Source: Oscillospiraceae bacterium (lineage in GTDB: Bacteria > Bacillota > Clostridia > Oscillospirales > Oscillospiraceae). Taken from it: a stretch of 47,233 nt of DNA. The notes beneath the pieces are model-generated. The model had not been told where the DNA came from. It ran no database searches and worked only from the letters and a program-made list of their open reading frames with translations. The DNA is taken from the NCBI GenBank assembly GCA_902795045.1, contig CADBJU010000007.1:4144-51376 (forward strand). The letters are read 5' to 3'. Positions 26,235 through 46,725 of the stretch are shown here, in pieces. The first letter of the stretch is position 1. Every line of letters starts with the position of its first letter. Made by a program: the position numbers and the translations under genes.

Positions 26235-27134
26235 TCACTTGATGGAGACGATGCCGGCGCCGGTGTTGGCGTTGAAGGTGTCGACAGCGCCGTCCTGGAG
26301 GGCGGCGACCAGGGCCACGATCTCGGGACGGGTCTCATCGCCGCGGCGGACAGCCACGAGGTTTGCGTAGGTCTGGGCGGCGTTGCCGGAGGCGTCCTCG
26401 ATGGCCAGAGCGTCGGTGGTCTTGAAGCCGGCGTTCAGGGCGTAGTTGTAGTTGATGACGGCGATGGTGCCCTCAGCGCTGTTGACCAGCAGGGAGGGGA
26501 CAGCGTCGGCCTGCGCGGCCTGGATGTTGTAGCCCTTGGCGTCCACGATGTCGAGGACGGAGGGGGCGGTGTCAACGGAGGCACCCTCGGGCAGGACGAT
26601 CAGGCCCTCCTGCTGCAGAAGGAGCAGGGCGCGGGTCTGGTTGGACTCGTCGTCGGGGACCAGAATGGTGGCGCCGTCAGCCAGGTTCTCGAGCTTGTCG
26701 AGGGTCTTGCTGTAGATGCCCATGGGCTCGTAGTGGACGAGACCGGCGGAAACGAGGTCAGTGCCGTTGGAGGCGTTGAAGCTGTTCATATAGGGGGCAT
26801 GCTGGAAGTAGTTGGCGTCCAGGGTGCCGTCCTGCAGGGCGGTGTTGGGCAGCACGTAATCGTCGTAGATCACGATGTCGAGGTTGATGCCCTGCTCGGC
26901 GAGCTTGGGCTTGACGATCTCAAGCAGTTCGCCGTGGGGAGTGGAGCTGGCGCCGACCTTGAGGGTGACGGGCTCGGCAGCAGCGGGAGCCTCGGTGGCA
27001 GCGGGGGCCTCGGTCGCGGCGGGAGCCTCAGTGGGGGCGGGCGTCGCGGTGGCGGCGGGAGCGGAGGAGCCGCAGGCGCTCAGAGACAGCGCGAGGAGTG
27101 CGGCGACAAGGATCAGAGCAAGATTTCTTTTCAT
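26235..27134 (-). CDS. metQ: Methionine ABC transporter, substrate-binding lipoprotein MetQ
   Basis: 299 residues. Signal peptide with lipobox LSAC near residue 21, then an Ala/Pro/Thr linker with repeated TEAPAA units (about 25-52), then the NlpA/MetQ domain: VKVGASSTPHGELLEIVKP-like start, YFQHAPYMNSFN, VHYEPMGIYS, IVDAKGYNIQ and VINYNYALNAG. It captures L-methionine (or D-methionine/peptide) for MetI and MetN. The start at 27134 follows AAAGGAGAA; longer reading lacks a signal peptide at the N-terminus. Last gene of metN-metI-metQ. Confidence 0.95.
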   Translation of the reverse strand: MKRNLALILVAALLALSLSACGSSAPAATATPAPTEAPAATEAPAATEAPAAAEPVTLKVGASSTPHGELLEIVKPKLAEQGINLDIVIYDDYVLPNTALQDGTLDANYFQHAPYMNSFNASNGTDLVSAGLVHYEPMGIYSKTLDKLENLADGATILVPDDESNQTRALLLLQQEGLIVLPEGASVDTAPSVLDIVDAKGYNIQAAQADAVPSLLVNSAEGTIAVINYNYALNAGFKTTDALAIEDASGNAAQTYANLVAVRRGDETRPEIVALVAALQDGAVDTFNANTGAGIVSIK

Positions 27135-27165: not shown

Positions 27166-27846
27166 TTACTTTGAGATACGTTTATCGGTGCGGTGCGCAA
27201 TGGCAGTCCCCACCTCCTGAATAATCTGGACGATTATTACAGTCAGAAAAACACAGATCCACTTGATGTCGGGATTGAAGCGCTGGTGGCCGTAGCTGAT
27301 GGCGATCTGGCCGAGGCCCGTGCCGCCGATGGTGGCAGACATGGCCGAGTAGCCGAGGATCGTAACCATCGAAATGACCGCCCCCATGATGAGGGAGGGC
27401 TTTGCCTCCGGCAGCAATACCTTCGTCACGATCTGGAAGTTGTTGGCGCCCATGGACTGGGCCGCCTCAATGACACCGAAGCTGACCTCCTTGAGGGAGG
27501 TCTCCACCATACGGGCGATATACGGGGAGGCCGCGATCACAAGCATCACGATCATCGCCTTGTTGCCGAGCGAGGTGCCGACGATGAAGTTTGCCACCGG
27601 CAGCATGGCGACCATCAGGATGATGAACGGGATGGAGCGGAAGAAGTTCACGATGATGCCGAGCAGGCGGTTTAGCCAGGGGATGGGACAGATGCCCTCG
27701 CGGTCGGTGATGTTGAGCACCACGCCCAGCGGCAGGCCGATCACATAGGAGATGGCGGTGGAGATCACGGTCATGTAGATGGTCTCCCAGATGCCGCGCT
27801 GGAGGATGCCCGCGTTCCAGAGCTTGTAAAAGGTTTCGGAAAGCAT
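27166..27846 (-). CDS. metI: Methionine ABC transporter permease MetI
   Basis: 226 residues with five predicted membrane helices and the ABC permease EAA loop EAAQSMGANNFQIVTKVLLP (near 126-145), which docks on MetN. FRSIPFIILM and TILGYSAMSATIGGTGLGQI are family signatures. Its start overlaps the metN stop by one base (TGATG), so translation is coupled. Confidence 0.96.
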   Translation of the reverse strand: MLSETFYKLWNAGILQRGIWETIYMTVISTAISYVIGLPLGVVLNITDREGICPIPWLNRLLGIIVNFFRSIPFIILMVAMLPVANFIVGTSLGNKAMIVMLVIAASPYIARMVETSLKEVSFGVIEAAQSMGANNFQIVTKVLLPEAKPSLIMGAVISMVTILGYSAMSATIGGTGLGQIAISYGHQRFNPDIKWICVFLTVIIVQIIQEVGTAIAHRTDKRISK

Positions 27847-28835
27847 CAGTTCTCCTCCTTCCAGTTGACCGAGCTGTTCTTGAGCCAGGTGAGGACCTTC
27901 TCGGCCTGGTGCGGATCGGTGGGCAGCTCGATGATCATGTGGCCGTAGACGATGCCGTCAAAGTCCTTGGTGTCGGCGAACATGATGTTGACCGGCACCT
28001 GGCAGTCGAGCGTCATGTTGGAGATGACCGGCTCCTTGGACTGCATGCCGTCGAAGATGATGCGGATCTTCTTGCCGCCGCTGGTCTCGATGGCTTTGCG
28101 GTCCTGAGGAAGGATGAGCTCCCGCGCGATCTGGGACTGCGGATTTGTGAACACCTCGCTGACGCGGCCCTCCTCGGCGATTCGGCTGTGGTCGATGACG
28201 GCCACCCGGTCGCAGATCTGGTCGATGACCTTCATCTCATGGGTGATGACGATGATGGTGACGTTCATGGTCTTGTTGATGCTTCTCAGCAGCTCCAGGA
28301 TGGAGCGGGTGGTGTTCGGGTCGAGGGCCGAGGTTGCCTCATCGCACAGGAGGTAGCGCGGATCGGAGGCCAGGGCGCGGGCGATGGCGACGCGCTGCTT
28401 CTGTCCGCCGGAGAGCTGCGAGGGGTACACCTCCGCCTTTTCCTCCAGGCCCACCACCTTCAAGAGCTTCAGTGCCTTTTCCTTTGCCTCCTGGCCCTTG
28501 ACGCCCGCGATCTCCAGCGGGAAGGTGACGTTCCGCAGGACGCTGCGCTGCTCGAGCAGGTTGAAGCCCTGGAAGATCATTGAGATGCTGCGCCGCATTT
28601 TCAGAAGCGCGGGGCGGGGGAGAGTGGTGATGTCCTGCCCGTCGATGATGACGCTGCCGGAGCTGGGGCGCTCAAGTAAGTTTATGCACCTGACCAGCGT
28701 GCTCTTGCCCGCGCCGGACAGACCGATAATGCCAAAAATCTCGCCGTCCTCGATGGTGAGGCTGATGTCGCGCAGGGCCTCCACATCACCGGCGGCGGAG
28801 GTATAGGTCTTGCACAGATTTTTCAATTCAATCAT
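27846..28835 (-). CDS. metN: Methionine ABC transporter ATP-binding protein MetN
   Basis: 329 residues from ATG 28835 (MIELKNLCKTY). Walker A GLSGAGKST (near 38-46), Q-loop MIFQGFNLL, ABC signature LSGGQKQRVAIARAL, Walker B LLCDEATSALDP and the switch His in VIVITHEM. After about residue 250 comes the NIL domain (IRIIFDGMQSKEPVISNM onward), which binds methionine and inhibits transport when the cell is replete. The next upstream Met codon in frame lies on the far side of a transcription terminator and is rejected. A Met-rich leader peptide and attenuator precede the gene. Confidence 0.96.
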   Translation of the reverse strand: MIELKNLCKTYTSAAGDVEALRDISLTIEDGEIFGIIGLSGAGKSTLVRCINLLERPSSGSVIIDGQDITTLPRPALLKMRRSISMIFQGFNLLEQRSVLRNVTFPLEIAGVKGQEAKEKALKLLKVVGLEEKAEVYPSQLSGGQKQRVAIARALASDPRYLLCDEATSALDPNTTRSILELLRSINKTMNVTIIVITHEMKVIDQICDRVAVIDHSRIAEEGRVSEVFTNPQSQIARELILPQDRKAIETSGGKKIRIIFDGMQSKEPVISNMTLDCQVPVNIMFADTKDFDGIVYGHMIIELPTDPHQAEKVLTWLKNSSVNWKEEN

Positions 28836-28881
28836 GCGCCGATTTCCTTTCAAAAATACAAATCGGGTTATAAAAGATGGG

Positions 28882-28921
28882 GCAAAAAAACAAACCCGGA
28901 AAACTCCCATGGTTTTCCGGG
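28882..28921 (-). terminator. Attenuator terminator in the metN leader
   Basis: On the minus strand CCCGGAAAAC (28921-28912), loop of seven, GTTTTCCGGG (28904-28895), then TTTGTTTTTTTGC. It lies between the leader ORF and metN, so transcripts stopping here never reach metNIQ. An upstream strand (CCATG at 28964-28960 and TTTCCG at 28954-28949) can pair with CGGAAA and CATGG of its 5' side and loop, forming a competing antiterminator. Confidence 0.9.
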
Positions 28922-28943
28922 CCTGATGGAATGACCGAAGCGA

Positions 28944-29054
28944 TCAAACGGAAAGCACACATGGCGAGTCACTTTTTTGCGCGCGCATCATCTTGCACAT
29001 GCCGCACATGTACATTTCCATCATCATGCTGTTGCAGACAGTGGCGGTACGCAT
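28944..29054 (-). CDS. Methionine-rich leader peptide of metNIQ
   Basis: 36 codons, too short for usual gene callers. The ribosome site AAAGGAG lies nine bases before ATG 29054. The product starts MRTATVCNSMMMEMYMCGMC and continues KMMRAQKSDSPCVLSV: nine Met (25 percent), four Cys. The Met codons cluster at codons 10-23; codons 31-35 form the 5' arm of the antiterminator. A ribosome waiting for Met-tRNA at codons 10-23 leaves that arm free, so the antiterminator forms and metNIQ is read; a ribosome that finishes at the TGA covers it, and the terminator forms. This is the logic of trp/his-type attenuation. An alternative is a small metal-binding peptide (CGMC motif), but the RNA layout argues for a leader. 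Confidence 0.85.
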   Translation of the reverse strand: MRTATVCNSMMMEMYMCGMCKMMRAQKSDSPCVLSV

Positions 29055-29085
29055 CGTGACAAGCTCCTTTCCAATGATTGCCTGC

Positions 29086-29114
29086 ATTATAGTCTCGCGC
29101 TGCCCGCTTGTCAA
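29086..29114 (-). promoter_or_regulatory. metNIQ leader promoter
   Basis: Minus strand, perfect TTGACA (29114-29109), 17 bases, perfect TATAAT (29091-29086). Transcription starts about 25 bases before the leader ATG. Confidence 0.93.
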
Positions 29115-29226
29115 GCGGCACGGCGCAGTTTCATGAATTTAACCATGCAAAGCGAAAAAGAACTTCAAAGAGATGAAGGATTTGCACAAATCTACCGGGT
29201 CGATATGTGGGGAGAGGTTCCACATC

Positions 29227-29255
29227 TTGACAATAGCGCGCTAAATTGCTAAAAT
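29227..29255 (+). promoter_or_regulatory. Promoter in front of the metA remnant
   Basis: TTGACA (29227-29232), 17 bases, TAAAAT (29250-29255). Only about 25 bases separate it from the first retained metA codons. Confidence 0.7.
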
Positions 29256-29279
29256 CCCAGTCATGCGCGGCGCAGCTCC

Positions 29280-29675
29280 ATGCTCATGCGCGGCTTTGAC
29301 GAGGTTTTCTATGTGCCCCACTCCCGCAACACGACCGTGAAGCTGAAGGATGTGCGCGCCTGCTCCAAGCTCAAGATCCTCGCCACCTCCGAAAAGGCGG
29401 GGCTCTACGCCGCCGCGACCGAGGGCGGGCGGCAGATTTTCATCACGGGCCACTCCGAGTATGACGCCGACACCCTGAAAAACGAGTACCTCCGCGACGT
29501 GAACCAGGGCATCGACCCCCATGTGCCGGAGAACTATTTCCCCGACGACGATCCCACGCGCGCCCCGCTCGTCACCTGGCGCAGCCACGCCAATCTCCTC
29601 TACATGAACTGGCTCAACTACTTCGTCTACCAGTCCACCCCCTACGAGATCGAGACCATCGAGCCGATCGGGTGA
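29280..29675 (+). pseudogene. metA: Truncated homoserine O-acyltransferase (MetA), C-terminal part only
   Basis: The 131 residues match the last 40 percent of Met[32 protein letters not shown], the catalytic His and Glu in [17 protein letters not shown] and [20 protein letters not shown]. Full MetA has about 300 residues; the first 170 or so, with the nucleophile Cys and oxyanion region, are missing. No ribosome site precedes ATG 29280. The sequence just upstream (ATGCGCGGC twice within 30 bases) may mark the deletion junction. Intact MetA would activate homoserine for methionine synthesis; its loss beside the methionine uptake operon suggests dependence on imported methionine, unless another MetA/MetX exists elsewhere. 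Confidence 0.88.
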
Positions 29676-29741
29676 TATTCCGACAGAAAAAGCGAGCTGT
29701 CTCAAAATGGTTTGTTAAAGCGCTTAACCTCCGGGTTCAGC

Positions 29742-29890
29742 GTAGGGGCCGACGCCCTCGGCGGCCCGTGCGGAACAACTTGAAATCATAAAGAAATCCC
29801 CGGCAAAAACGTACAACTGTGCGTCTTTGCCGGGGATAAGTGCATTTTTTCAGAATCTACTGCCGGGCCGCCGAGGGCGTCGGCCCCTAC
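29742..29890. repeat. Palindromic repeat family D, copy 2
   Basis: Arms GTAGGGGCCGACGCCCTCGG and its complement at the right end; inner hairpin ATCCCCGGCAAA / TTTGCCGGGGAT. Similarity to copy 1 continues beyond the right arm (AATGCCAATTG ... TTTTTTCACAGC). The core matches copy 1 only after reverse complementing. Confidence 0.88.
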
Positions 29891-29932
29891 AATGCCAATT
29901 GACTTTTTTCACAGCCCCTTCTTGCACATTCC

Positions 29933-30760
29933 TCAAATATAATGGAAGCGGAAATAGTCCACAATGAGTGCGATGCCCGCAGCCGCGATGCTGCGGCCGT
30001 CCGGGGTGAGGTAGGCGTCGGACAGGTAGCCGTTTTCGTCGTTGAGGAAGGAGGCGAGGTCGGCGTAGTAGGCGCCGGTGTCGGTGCAGACCTGGCGGAT
30101 CCAGTTGTTGGCGCGGGAGATGAGCGCCGGGGTCAGGCCGTCGCCGCCCTGATAGTTGGAGCTGATGGAGGCGATGGAGCAGACCACCACGTTGGTGGAG
30201 GGGCTTGCGCTGCGCAGGCTCTGGATGAGGCCCGTGTAGCCGTCGATGAACTCCTGTTCGCTCGTCTCGGCAAGGCCGTCGCCGCCCAGATAGATGACCA
30301 CCGTTTTGGGCCGCGTGACCATGGCGGCATTCGCGGGGGTGATCTGCGATCCGTCCACAAAGACGATGGGGTTCTCGGCGGCGTTCTTCGCGGGCAGCCC
30401 GGAGCCGTCGTCCGTCCAGATCTGGGGGATGATGCCGTCGCCGTAGTTGGTGGCGTAGGTCTTGATGCCCATGATGGTCTTGTCGCACAGGAAAGTCATG
30501 TTGAACACGCTCTCCAGATTGCCCTTCGTGCTCTCGGGCAGGGGCGTAAGGGTCTTCACGGCGGTCTCCATCCCGGCGATATCGCTGTCTTTTGCCTTTT
30601 TGGTGCGTTCGATCTGGCCGAGGGTGATGGTGCCGTCAGCGCGGGTCTCGCTGTTCTTGCGCGACATGGCGAAGATCAGTCCCACCAGCATCGCCACCAG
30701 ACACAGCAGGATCGCCGCCGCCCACATCATGTTCTTGAGATTGGATAGTTTGTCTTTCAT
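29933..30760 (-). CDS. Membrane-anchored SGNH-hydrolase-like protein lacking catalytic residues
   Basis: 275 residues from ATG 30760 behind AAAGGAAG. One N-terminal membrane segment (about 10-32) leaves an external domain. The later part has the flow of clostridial SGNH/GDSL hydrolases: PKTVVIYLGGDGL, FIDGYTGLIQSLRSASPSTN, VVVCSIASISS, ISRANNWIRQVC, YYADLASFLNDENGYLS and YLTPDGRSIAAAGIALIVDY. The block-I motif (usually FIGDSRT) reads FLCDKTIMG, the block-III Asn is replaced (LGGDG), and the block-V His after the last Asp is Ser (DGRSI). So Ser, Asn and His are all gone; a binding role is more likely than hydrolysis. Function unknown. It follows the EF-G-like gene on the same strand after a terminator. 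Confidence 0.7.
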   Translation of the reverse strand: MKDKLSNLKNMMWAAAILLCLVAMLVGLIFAMSRKNSETRADGTITLGQIERTKKAKDSDIAGMETAVKTLTPLPESTKGNLESVFNMTFLCDKTIMGIKTYATNYGDGIIPQIWTDDGSGLPAKNAAENPIVFVDGSQITPANAAMVTRPKTVVIYLGGDGLAETSEQEFIDGYTGLIQSLRSASPSTNVVVCSIASISSNYQGGDGLTPALISRANNWIRQVCTDTGAYYADLASFLNDENGYLSDAYLTPDGRSIAAAGIALIVDYFRFHYI

Positions 30761-30776
30761 GGCACGACTTCCTTTG

Positions 30777-30810
30777 AAAATATGGGCGACCCTCAGGCCG
30801 CCCATATTTT
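30777..30810 (-). terminator. Terminator of the EF-G-like gene
   Basis: 12-bp perfect stem AAAATATGGGCG / CGCCCATATTTT; on the minus strand the 3' arm ends in TTTT. It sits 17 bases upstream of the next start codon, so the SGNH-like gene depends on readthrough or an unseen promoter. Confidence 0.75.
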
Positions 30811-30826
30811 ATAGATCGGATTCGGA

Positions 30827-32836
30827 TTACTCCTGCTCGGCCAGAGCCTTGGCTTCCTCGATGACCTTCTGCTGCACGTTGCCGGGGGCTTCCTCGTAAC
30901 GCACGAACTTGCAGGTGAAGGAGCCGGCGCCCTGGGTCATGGAGCGCAGGTCGATGGTGTAGGAGCTCATCTCGGCCAGGGGGACCTCGGCCTCGATGGT
31001 GGTCATGCCGTCCTCAGCGGGCATGGAGCCCATCATGGTGCCGCGGCGCTTGGAGTTGATGTCGCCGATGATGGCGCCCTGGAACTCATCGGGGACGGTG
31101 ACGAAGAGCTGGCCGATGGGCTCGAGGATGGTGGGCTTGGCCCTGGGGATGCCGTCCTGGTAGGCCAGGCGCGCGGCGGTCTGGAAGGCCATATCGTTGG
31201 AGTCGACGGGGTGGTAGGAGCCGTCGTACAGGGTGGCCTTGAGGCCGACCAGCGGGTAACCGGCGAGAACGCCCTTCTGCACGGCGTTGCGCAGGCCCTT
31301 TTCGACGGAGGGGAAGAAGTTCTTGGGGACGGAGCCGCCGAAGACTTCCTCGGCGAAGATCATGTCGTCCTGCTCGTCCTGGGGCTCGAAGCGGATCCAC
31401 ACGTCGCCGAACTGGCCGGAACCGCCGGACTGCTTCTTGTGACGGCCGTGGGCCTCGACCTTGCCCTTGATCTTCTCGCGGTAGGCGACGCGGGCGGGTT
31501 TGAGCTCGGTGTCGACATTGTAGAGATTCTTGAGCTTGGAGCAGAGGACGCCGATCTGGATGTCGCCGGCGCCGGAAATGACCATCTGGTGGGTCTCGGC
31601 GTTGTTGACGAGGGTGAAGGAGATGTCTTCCTCGCCGAGCTTGGTCAGGCCGCCTGCGACCTTGTCGTCCTGGCCCTTGGTCTTGGGCGCGATGCACATG
31701 GAGTAGCAGGGCTCGGGAATGTCGATGGGGGGCAGCTCGATATCGTCCTTGGAGTCGGTGACGGTGTCGCCGGTCTTCCAGTCCATCTTGCCGATGGCCA
31801 CGATGTCGCCGCAGCAGGCCTCGGTGACCTCGGTGCTCTTCTTGCCGCACATGGTATACAGGCGGCCGAGCTTATCGGTGGAGGAGGCGCGGACGTTGCG
31901 CAGGGACATGCCGGCGGTGATCTTGCCGGAAAGGACCTTCACAAAGCTGTACTTGCCGAACTTGTCGGACACGGTTTTGAACACGAAGCCGAGAACGCCG
32001 TCGTTCTTTGCCTCGGGGGCGGGGCAGTAGTCGGCGATGCCCTGGAGCATGGCGATGGTGCCGACGTTGGTCATGGCGTCGGTGGCGAACACGGGAACGA
32101 CAGCGCGCTCCTTCACGCCGACCTTGAGGCCCTCGATGATGTCGGCCTCTTCAAGCTCCATGGTCTCGAAGAACTTCTCCATGAGCTCCTCGGTGGCGCC
32201 TGCGGCGGCCTCCATGAGCTCGGCGCGGAGGTCTTCCACATGGCCTGCGTCGGCGGCGGGGACAGCGGTCTTCTCAGCCTTGCTGCCCTTGGTGATGTAG
32301 GCAACATTGTGCACCAGGTCGATGACGCCCTTGCCGTCGGAGGTGGGGATGGTGACGGGGCAGATGATGGAGCCGTACTTGCCCTTGAGGGTCTCGAGGG
32401 CCTTGAAGTAATCGCCGTGCTCCTCATTGCACTTGGAGATGCAGAACATGACGGGCAGCTTTGCATTCTTCAGGTAGTTCCAGCTTCTCTGGCCGCCGAC
32501 GGGCAGGAACTCCGCCGTATCCTTGGCGGAGGTGACGATGACGCCGCACTCCACAGCGCGCAGGGCGCACAGCACGTCGCCCACGAAGTCGAAATAGCCG
32601 GGGCAGTCGAGGACGTTGATTTTATTGCCTGCGAAGTTCACCGGGGCAATGGAGGTGGCGATGGTGATCTGGCGGGCGGTTTCCTCTGCGTCGTAGTCGC
32701 AGACGGTGGTGCCGTCGGCGACCTTGCCCATGCGGTCGATGGCGCCGGTGCAGTAGAGCATGCTCTCAGCAAGGCTGGTTTTGCCGTTGTTGCCGTGGCC
32801 GATCAGGCAGATGTTGCGAATGTTTTTCGTTTCCAT
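30827..32836 (-). CDS. Elongation factor G paralog with altered GTPase motifs
   Basis: 669 residues with all five EF-G domains: GTP-binding domain 1-270, domain II near 285-370 (FGKYSFVKVLSGKITAGMSL), domain III, domain IV (KKQSGGSGQFGDVWIRFEP; YHPVDSNDMAFQTAARLAY) and domain V (GDINSKRRGTMMGSMP). G1 is GHGNNGKTS (13-21) and G2 RQITIA. G3 reads DCPGYFDF: Tyr81 replaces the His that activates water in canonical DTPGH. G4 reads SKCN (134-137) instead of NKxD. These changes separate it from the housekeeping FusA and suggest slow hydrolysis or altered nucleotide choice. It belongs with the EF-G-like paralogs seen in clostridia, some of which work in recycling or stress. It has its own promoter. 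Confidence 0.88.
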   Translation of the reverse strand: METKNIRNICLIGHGNNGKTSLAESMLYCTGAIDRMGKVADGTTVCDYDAEETARQITIATSIAPVNFAGNKINVLDCPGYFDFVGDVLCALRAVECGVIVTSAKDTAEFLPVGGQRSWNYLKNAKLPVMFCISKCNEEHGDYFKALETLKGKYGSIICPVTIPTSDGKGVIDLVHNVAYITKGSKAEKTAVPAADAGHVEDLRAELMEAAAGATEELMEKFFETMELEEADIIEGLKVGVKERAVVPVFATDAMTNVGTIAMLQGIADYCPAPEAKNDGVLGFVFKTVSDKFGKYSFVKVLSGKITAGMSLRNVRASSTDKLGRLYTMCGKKSTEVTEACCGDIVAIGKMDWKTGDTVTDSKDDIELPPIDIPEPCYSMCIAPKTKGQDDKVAGGLTKLGEEDISFTLVNNAETHQMVISGAGDIQIGVLCSKLKNLYNVDTELKPARVAYREKIKGKVEAHGRHKKQSGGSGQFGDVWIRFEPQDEQDDMIFAEEVFGGSVPKNFFPSVEKGLRNAVQKGVLAGYPLVGLKATLYDGSYHPVDSNDMAFQTAARLAYQDGIPRAKPTILEPIGQLFVTVPDEFQGAIIGDINSKRRGTMMGSMPAEDGMTTIEAEVPLAEMSSYTIDLRSMTQGAGSFTCKFVRYEEAPGNVQQKVIEEAKALAEQE

Positions 32837-45108: not shown

Positions 45109-46725
45109 ATGGCTAAAATGAGCATCAGCAAAGCACTGAAGGATTTCTGGTACGGCAAGCCCCATACCGCCGAAGAGGGCGGCCGCCGCCTCGGAGATCT
45201 GCACGAGGACAAGACCCACCTCTACAAGCACAGAGAGTGGCGCGGTGTCGCGGACACCATGTACTACTTCTACAACATCTGGCTGTATAACTACATCTTC
45301 ATGGTCAAGGACATCATGGTCATGCACGGGCCCATCACCTTCGCCAAGGGCCTGTGGCGCTACCGCTGGGTCGGCCAGACCTACCTGCCGGTTCTCCACT
45401 GGTTTGACCGCGGCCTTGAGGGTATGCGCGGCGAGGCCATGAAGGCCTCCGCCTGGCACTACCGCGCCATGGTTTCCACCACCATCCGCCAGTTCCAGCG
45501 CATGTTCGCCGCCGATACCCGTCTGCACGGCGGCAAGCAGAACGACCTGTACAAGCACACCATCGCCCACAACGAGACTGTCTGGGGCGGCGTGTTCTAT
45601 CCCTGGGACGGCGAGATCACCAATGTCCCGCTGGAAATGATCCCCTACTTCGTCACCTGCCACGTCAACTCCCACACTGTTCTCAACTACATCGACGCGG
45701 TGCAGTCCATCGGCCTGCCCGGCGACCCGTGCCCCATGTGCCAGGCCGAGTCCGGCATCTTCGTCCTGGACGACGTGCCCGACTACGCCCCCGCTGTCAT
45801 CACCTGCAACGAGGCCTGTGACGCGTCCGTCTCCACCTCCACCCTGCAGGACTGGTTCTTCGACAAGCCTCTCTTCTCCCTGCCCATGCCCATGCTCTTC
45901 GATGACCCCCTGGTCAAGAAGTACGTCATGCGCGAGATCGAGGAGCTGTGGAAGTTCGTCGAGCAGCAGTACGGCATCCCCTTCAGCTGGGAGAAGCTCA
46001 CGAAGAAGCTGGAGCTCCAGAACGAGCTGCAGCGCTTCGAGTGGGAGAAGTGGGAAGTCGCGGCCAAGTCCGACTACTATCCCGTCAACGGCGTCGCCCA
46101 GGCCCTGTACCGCATCTACCAGACTCAGTACGGCGACTGGGAGATCTGGCATGTCACCGACAAGAAGGTCCGCAAGATCCTCGAGAAGTGCGTGTCCAAG
46201 AAGATCAACTCCTTCCCCCAGACCCGCCACCGCGTGATCGCCTGGTCCTGCGCGCCGCTTTACTACTCCAACTGGTGCACCTGGGCCTACAACTGCTGGG
46301 GCCTGAACGTCATCATCAACATGGACTCCCTGATGTTCGACATGGAGATCCGCACCGACTCCTACGAGCACACCCTCGAGGATATGGCCCAGTACCACAT
46401 GTGGGCTCCGATGCGCCGCATGGCCGTCGGCGGCATGCACCACATGTTTGAGCTGTGGGACTACATGAAGCGCTTCAACTGCGACATGGTCGCCATGTAC
46501 GACCAGCTCCAGTGCAAGGGCGTGCAGGGCCTGCACGGCCTGTTTGAGGACGAGTTCCGCAAGAGAGACATCAAGGCGTTCTGGATCCCCCACGCCCTGC
46601 CCGACAGCCGCACTGTCTCCCGCGCCGAGATCCGCCGCCTCATCAACGACTACATGAGCACCGTCATGCACGAAGAGCCTCTGGACCCGTCTCTGCTTGA
46701 CTTTGACGACTCCATGACCTGGTAA
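45109..46725 (+). CDS. 2-hydroxyacyl-CoA dehydratase, large subunit
   Basis: 538 residues, longer than typical HgdA (about 477) or FldB/LcdA (about 410-430). The N-terminal 120 residues (RREWRGVADTMYYFYNI-like, rich in Trp and Tyr) look like an extra module. Family features include MIPYFVTCHVNSHTV, GDPCPMCQAESG, VITCNEACDASVSTS, ELQNELQRFEWEKWE and WSCAPLYYSNWCTWAYNCWG; Cys in CPMC, CNEAC and SCAP are cluster candidates. ATG 45109 follows AGGAGG inside the previous gene; a second ATG three codons on is also possible. It partners the 403-residue subunit and the activase at the window end. Confidence 0.87.
   Translation: MAKMSISKALKDFWYGKPHTAEEGGRRLGDLHEDKTHLYKHREWRGVADTMYYFYNIWLYNYIFMVKDIMVMHGPITFAKGLWRYRWVGQTYLPVLHWFDRGLEGMRGEAMKASAWHYRAMVSTTIRQFQRMFAADTRLHGGKQNDLYKHTIAHNETVWGGVFYPWDGEITNVPLEMIPYFVTCHVNSHTVLNYIDAVQSIGLPGDPCPMCQAESGIFVLDDVPDYAPAVITCNEACDASVSTSTLQDWFFDKPLFSLPMPMLFDDPLVKKYVMREIEELWKFVEQQYGIPFSWEKLTKKLELQNELQRFEWEKWEVAAKSDYYPVNGVAQALYRIYQTQYGDWEIWHVTDKKVRKILEKCVSKKINSFPQTRHRVIAWSCAPLYYSNWCTWAYNCWGLNVIINMDSLMFDMEIRTDSYEHTLEDMAQYHMWAPMRRMAVGGMHHMFELWDYMKRFNCDMVAMYDQLQCKGVQGLHGLFEDEFRKRDIKAFWIPHALPDSRTVSRAEIRRLINDYMSTVMHEEPLDPSLLDFDDSMTW

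Follow-up and report, generated by a model that had tools for sequence, protein, structure and literature searches.

The region under study lies on the minus strand of the window, by which we mean the whole 47,233-nt stretch of Oscillospiraceae DNA that was analysed. At 29114-28884 (-) it runs from a promoter over a ribosome-binding site and a Met-rich open reading frame (ORF) to an intrinsic terminator, followed by the genes metN, metI and metQ. By homology, metN (27846..28835, -) encodes the ATPase of a methionine ABC transporter (TIGR02314, E 1.8e-108; score 362.6, cut-off 499.7), metI (27166..27846, -) its permease (NF008049, E 1.2e-62; 211.5 bits, cut-off 212) and metQ (26235..27134, -) its substrate-binding lipoprotein (TIGR00363, E 1.3e-36; score 126.6, cut-off 228.85), the start of metQ being set by choice at an inner ATG. 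Since none of the three genes reaches its curated NCBIfam cut-off, the shortfall of metI being half a bit, their names and the substrate of the transporter rest on this homology. With the same reservation, the downstream genes serve methionine, the amino acid in whose codons the leader is rich.

Elements of the leader region

The promoter (29086..29114, -) matches the TTGACA and TATAAT consensus in 12 of 12 positions with a spacer of 17 nt and is the sole 12-of-12 site on either strand of 28000-32500, a section in which we found two promoter-like sites against 1.1 expected in shuffles. In most relatives, too, a promoter matching in 11 or 12 of 12 positions lies some 60 nt upstream of the leader ATG. 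Transcription would start near 29079 (-), about 25 nt ahead of the leader ORF. The second promoter-like site (11 of 12; 29227-29255, +) points in the direction opposite to metNIQ and faces an ORF at 29280-29675.

The leader ORF (MRTATVCNSMMMEMYMCGMCKMMRAQKSDSPCVLSV; 28944..29054, -) is preceded by an AAAGGAG ribosome-binding site at 29070-29064 (-), begins with ATG and comprises 36 codons plus stop. It contains four Cys and nine Met codons, start included, and eight of the latter are clustered in codons 10-23 (28986..29027, -), with Met columns that are conserved in relatives. From the last Met codon, a spacer of four codons reading RAQK (28974..28985, -), about as long as the downstream reach of a ribosome, leads to a strand termed R2 (codons ~28-36; 28949..28972, -). 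The terminator (28891..28925, -) has 14 pairs and a U-tract of seven T (28884..28890, -); its 5' arm, its loop and the first bases of its 3' arm constitute R3. For R2 there are two alternative partners: either the 5' side of the terminator, which gives an antiterminator and in which CATGG and CGGAAA are complementary to CCATG (28964-28960) and TTTCCG (28954-28949), or R1 (29056..29073, -), which consists of the ribosome-binding site and the stretch toward the start codon. The original prediction had named the promoter, the AAAGGAG site, the 36-codon ORF with nine Met, the terminator and the strand pairing with it, and all of them were found in place on the minus strand; it had missed R1 as a third element that pairs with R2. 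Folding energy alone is no evidence here, because the fold of the entire leader RNA is not more stable than that of shuffles (z -1.17).

Across all six reading frames of the 47 kb, eight ATG codons within 20 codons occur only in the leader. The only other 20-codon stretch with seven ATG codons lies at position 45335 on the minus strand.

Distribution and conservation of the Met-rich leader

In the own genome of 2.75 Mb, the leader profile has a single match even when E values as high as 10 are admitted. As built from 24 leaders, the profile matches 57 of the 102 genomes of the genus at E 0.01, in 60 places. This number is a lower bound, as another genome (G001) carries a leader (L107) that the profile missed at this threshold. 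Fifty-nine of these places (all except G003:C190) were looked at: 57 precede metN or metQ, and contig ends truncate the remaining two (L087, L093). A pattern scan of the genome contigs gave 204 pattern matches, only two of which were confirmed as leader loci. Starting from the gene, a MetN query with a threshold of E 1e-100 found a match in 41 of the 61 genomes sampled from the genus. Upstream of these 41 metN genes there are 26 Met-rich leaders (24 of the 30 loci from the first set together with L088 and L107), eight T-boxes and one contig end (L023), and six metN genes (L031, L032, L035, L037, L115, L116) lack both a leader and a T-box directly upstream. The Met-rich ORF is therefore kept in related metN leaders, as the original prediction had proposed to check. 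Homologous metN operons with no such ORF, which it had counted as evidence against itself, do exist in the T-box group and in the group with neither element.

Some of these genomes deserve a separate remark. By eye, the gene ahead of metN in L115 and L116 resembles metQ. Two genomes (G368, G369) have two Met leaders each (L089, L097, L098, L099), ahead of two different metN operons with about 40% and 70% identity to the MetN of the window, which suggests that operon and leader were duplicated or transferred together. In another genome (G017), a second leader place is located at a contig edge.

Within a family sample of 300 genomes from 106 genera, the profile matched in 15 genomes of 11 genera, one of the 15 by chance; of the 13 matches outside the genus, 12 lie ahead of metN or metQ, whereas the remaining one (L053) seems to be due to chance. 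A profile of 47 leaders matched five of 394 genomes in an order sample, two of them from other families. Among the four new places obtained in this way, three precede metQ or metN, and L127, from outside the family, precedes metY, which we take to encode an O-acetylhomoserine sulfhydrylase. A phylum sample gave three matches in 398 genomes, namely the own genome and two apparent chance matches (L131, L132). L053, L131 and L132 were rejected as leaders, as they lack a Met cluster as well as any match to metN, metI or metQ. Most genera in the family, order and phylum samples gave no match to the profile. Of the two named records retrieved, the closer is the Ruminococcaceae MAG RUG13650 with 94% leader identity, and the other, an Oscillospiraceae MAG from goat reticulum, shows 61%.

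Collecting all 92 rows with a Met cluster and dropping one chance row (L028) and duplicates left 71 distinct leaders. A terminator follows in 70 of them, and the 71st (L093) comes without downstream sequence. A script located 65 of the 70, and the other five were identified manually or visually, those of L038, L046, L097 and L104 being set by hand. Leaving out L093 as well as L105, for which the terminator finder had picked a wrong hairpin, gives a set of 69, in which 614 non-start ATG codons are in the leader frame versus 37 in the other two frames combined. Small ORFs are common, and a Met-rich one might lie ahead of an ordinary terminator by chance. Against such a coincidence stand the occurrence of the leader in 13 genera ahead of methionine genes, its frequency within the genus, the excess of in-frame ATG and the coevolution of the helices described below; we regard the idea as refuted and its probability as next to nil.

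The 65 distinct peptides have a mean of 8.9 Met in 33.4 non-start codons (range 5-11) and of 3.0 Cys (range 1-6). Among the first 24 leaders, Met is invariant in five columns, and in the wider set of 47 six columns, start included, have at least 90% Met. The residues between the Met codons mostly vary, apart from a Cys that follows an invariant Met and is kept in 41 of the 47. The C-terminal part is variable, and some leaders stop early, after 26-29 residues. Besides the Met columns, the spacer after the last Met stands out and reads [RCH]-A-Q-[KN] across leaders. In the 67 of 69 leaders in which this pattern was found, Ala is kept 62 times (GCG 29, GCC 24, GCT 6, GCA 3) and Gln, as CAA or CAG, 52 times.

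Competing helices and the position of the ribosome

According to duplex predictions, the registers of R1:R2 and R2:R3 are largely shared across leaders. For coevolution and ribosome modelling we used 68 leaders, L024 being left out for want of its 5' side, and from these took 19 representatives with less than 70% identity, pairing each strand with its own partner and with that of every other representative. R1:R2 reached -18.3 kcal/mol with the own partner and -14.9 kcal/mol with others (z -4.8; reached by one of 20,000 permutations), and R2:R3 reached -19.8 versus -16.3 kcal/mol (z -5.1; reached by none of 20,000). The controls gave no signal, neither for R1:R3 (z -0.4) nor for R1 with reversed R2 (z 0.3) or reversed R2 with R3 (z -0.2). 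Own partners beat another partner in 78% (R1:R2) and 77% (R2:R3) of the cases, and are the single best in four and two of the 19, respectively. As the own partner is so seldom the single best, the signal has to be understood as a shift in the mean and not as lock and key. Within R1, coevolution with R2 is located in -12..+3, from the Shine-Dalgarno sequence to the start codon (z -5.7), and the upstream half of the ribosome-binding-site region (-24..-8) shows none (z -0.8). In addition, R2 folded with R3 forms a mean of 16.2 pairs compared to 8.3 with R2 shuffled, and 18 of the 19 representatives exceed the shuffle mean. Both the antiterminator and the second helix thus coevolve, in line with the covariation of helices that had been proposed as a check.

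A plain MAFFT alignment was made of 56 of the 68 leaders, leaving out 12 loci of other genera and keeping L054, which comes from a named record. The share of paired cells in register exceeds that in slid registers for R1:R2 (64% versus 38-54%), R2:R3 (76% versus 29-51%) and the terminator (86% versus 27-57%). Double-change pairs exceed the slid registers in the terminator (13 versus 6-9), but neither in R1:R2 (8 versus 6-12) nor in R2:R3 (8 versus 4-10). Since these counts separate only the terminator from slid registers, the permutation test is the stronger evidence.

These data also bear on the question whether the ORF encodes a functional small Met- and Cys-rich protein, for instance a metal-binding one, with the RNA pairing being incidental. 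Met and Cys are metal ligands, and the peptide is conserved. Nevertheless, a search of 47 peptides against family libraries gave E 0.011 (Pfam) and 0.014 (NCBIfam) at best, each family in a single peptide, and the variable C-terminal part with its early ends also speaks against it. Considering further that both competing helices coevolve and that the ORF keeps a constant position ahead of terminator and methionine genes, we judge a small protein very unlikely.

The positions of the helices relative to the ribosome were modelled for an A site occupied by the last Met codon, with the upstream RNA masked, requiring at least six pairs for the antiterminator and at least eight for the terminator. 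The 3' reach of the ribosome was taken as 16 nt from the P site. In this model of a stalled ribosome, the antiterminator (median 18 pairs) forms in all 68 leaders before most of the 3' arm of the terminator exists, and its first base lies a median of 15 nt past the last Met codon, which is about the reach of the ribosome. Once the ribosome has reached the stop codon, the model predicts a terminator in 68 of 68 leaders. The same holds with no ribosome at all, a situation in which R1:R2 forms with at least six pairs in 65 of the 68. By sequence and folding, antiterminator and terminator are mutually exclusive, and the former would be free when a ribosome stalls at Met codons and masked when it stands at the stop. 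At equilibrium, with the ribosome stalled and the whole terminator made, 64 of 68 leaders still favour the terminator, and for this reason antitermination must win by timing. In known attenuators, antitermination is likewise regarded as kinetic.

Based on our data, the leader is very probably a ribosome-mediated transcription attenuator of the trp/his type, which would gauge charged tRNA-Met and thereby control a methionine importer. With an ample supply of charged tRNA-Met, the leading ribosome would cross the Met cluster up to the stop codon and cover R2, so that the terminator forms and metNIQ is switched off. When it is scarce, the ribosome would stall within the Met cluster and leave R2 free, as this strand begins about 15 nt beyond the last Met codon; R2 could then capture the terminator's 5' side and loop by pairing while these are still emerging, the terminator would come too late, and metNIQ would be transcribed. 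If no ribosome translates the leader, R2 would pair with R1, which leaves the terminator free and would also close the leader to late initiation. The stalling logic of the original prediction is therefore supported by the conserved ORF, the coevolving helices and the geometry, with the provision that equilibrium folds mostly favour the terminator. The part added here, the closure of the ribosome-binding site by R1:R2, may not be unique, because in enteric bacteria the ribosome-binding site of the trp leader is reported to be blocked by downstream RNA.

The probable signal and related control systems

Methionine control in Gram-positive bacteria is known via SAM riboswitches, T-boxes and repressors. 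Rfam gave no match at gathering score over the whole window, including the T-box (RF00230) and SAM riboswitch (RF00162) models, and no T-box or SAM riboswitch match ahead of metN in the leader-bearing loci L009, L016 and L026; the leader itself was rejected as a T-box or SAM riboswitch, as neither covariance model matches before metN. Elsewhere in the own genome there are one SAM riboswitch, directly before metK (L117), and eight T-box matches at E 0.001, two of which exceed the gathering score.

In the same genus, a T-box stands in place of the Met-rich leader ahead of seven metN operons at gathering score (L028, L108, L109, L110, L112, L113, L114); an eighth (L111) falls below this threshold and was recognised by the core motifs GGTGGTACC and GAACATGG only. 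All seven aligned T-boxes show GAACAUGG, that is AUG followed by a purine, at the presumed specifier position of the loop. AUG is found there in all eight metN T-boxes and a Cys codon in none. Because the elements which replace the leader carry AUG at the specifier loop, charged tRNA-Met is indicated as the shared signal. Together with the single SAM riboswitch before metK, this leads to a picture in which metK would follow SAM and metNIQ methionyl-tRNA.

A different signal is conceivable if the nascent peptide itself arrests the ribosome: a Met-rich chain ending in [RCH]-A-Q-[KN] could stall on a metabolite such as Met, SAM or another sulfur compound and not on uncharged tRNA-Met. The Ala and Gln of the spacer are kept with synonymous drift, and coevolution reveals no pairing of the spacer either with codons 6-14 (z -0.1) or with the start-codon region (z -0.6), so that RNA pairing with these regions is not supported as the cause of its conservation. 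On the other hand, the Met columns are the most conserved ones and the other residues of the cluster mostly change, one Cys column excepted. R, C and H at the first spacer position share a codon shape but not a chemistry, K alternates with N, and the AUG of the replacing T-boxes points to tRNA. We therefore consider arrest by a metabolite improbable. For the spacer as such, the length fits the reach of the ribosome, and the sequence may point to a nascent-chain effect.

The original prediction suggested that the Cys codons may add cysteine sensing. Compatible with a Met-tRNA-dependent attenuator, this would mean an additional response when Cys-tRNA runs short and make the leader a sensor of sulfur amino acids. 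Cys accounts for 8.8% of the non-start residues, being the third commonest, and the one conserved Cys after an invariant Met fits this idea. However, the other Cys positions exchange with F, R, Y, S and G, the number of Cys drops to a single one in some peptides compared to at least five Met, and the T-boxes on metN are of the Met type throughout, which leaves the additional sensing of cysteine a rather doubtful prospect.

In its logic, the putative attenuator resembles trp/his-type systems, as it combines a leader ORF rich in the regulatory codon, an antiterminator competing with a terminator and downstream genes for the same amino acid; it differs from them in that the strand competing for the antiterminator strand is the region of the leader's own ribosome-binding site. 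His-leader attenuators are known in Firmicutes (PMC2965389, PMC9413887). Unlike these, the present leader is devoted to methionine, and its five to eleven regulatory codons (mean 8.9) are interspersed, whereas three to five consecutive His codons are reported for the His leaders (PMC9413887). The Met T-box of the same genus shares with the leader the position before metN, the inferred signal (uncharged tRNA-Met) and the expected readthrough on starvation, but is a structured RNA that binds the tRNA directly, with no leader ORF. The SAM riboswitch, which also serves methionine-related control and is present in the own genome, senses SAM and not tRNA charging.

The statement that no methionine leader-peptide attenuator has been described was slightly too strong, since one, metL before metNIQ in Streptomyces lividans TK24, was proposed in a transcriptome-based reannotation (PMC8079986). 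Like our leader, metL is a short ORF that contains Met and Cys, lies ahead of metNIQ and was suggested to act as an attenuator. It differs by its 29 residues with three Met including the start, a leaderless transcript and the lack of a typical terminator, and is reported for a single organism (PMC8079986). For Actinobacteria, a survey does not report any conserved RNA structure ahead of methionine operons (PMC1262725). Among the matches listed in the open-licence literature, a body of work that leaves most subscription journals and all preprints outside, we found no other methionine leader peptide. What is new is the well-supported methionine specificity, the use of the own ribosome-binding-site region as competing strand and the T-box stand-in within one genus, on a logic of the trp/his type.

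A conserved attenuator of this kind would add a well-supported new amino acid to leader-peptide control. The swap of T-box and leader peptide on homologous operons within one genus constitutes a natural experiment in regulator exchange. The attenuator furthermore predicts methionine-regulated uptake in many, mostly unstudied genomes, and the Met-rich leader provides a searchable signature for methionine genes. More tentatively, and with a low probability in our own estimate, one may envisage a lineage-wide attenuator that joins the counting of Met codons with a nascent-chain effect of [RCH]-A-Q-[KN], closes its own ribosome-binding site, thus allowing one methionyl-tRNA test per transcript, and interchanges with Met T-boxes.

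A minor observation concerns the sequence CGAATGTG, which is located between the leader terminator and the first gene in five metQ- or metY-first operons (L041 ~1712, +; L050 ~1731, -; L127 ~1767, +; L128 ~1714, -; L129 ~1760, +) and is absent from L049, L105 and L130. As the bare string occurs in 18 of the 92 leader loci, only its position is notable. In some of the five operons, it sits inside a tiny ORF reading RMC.
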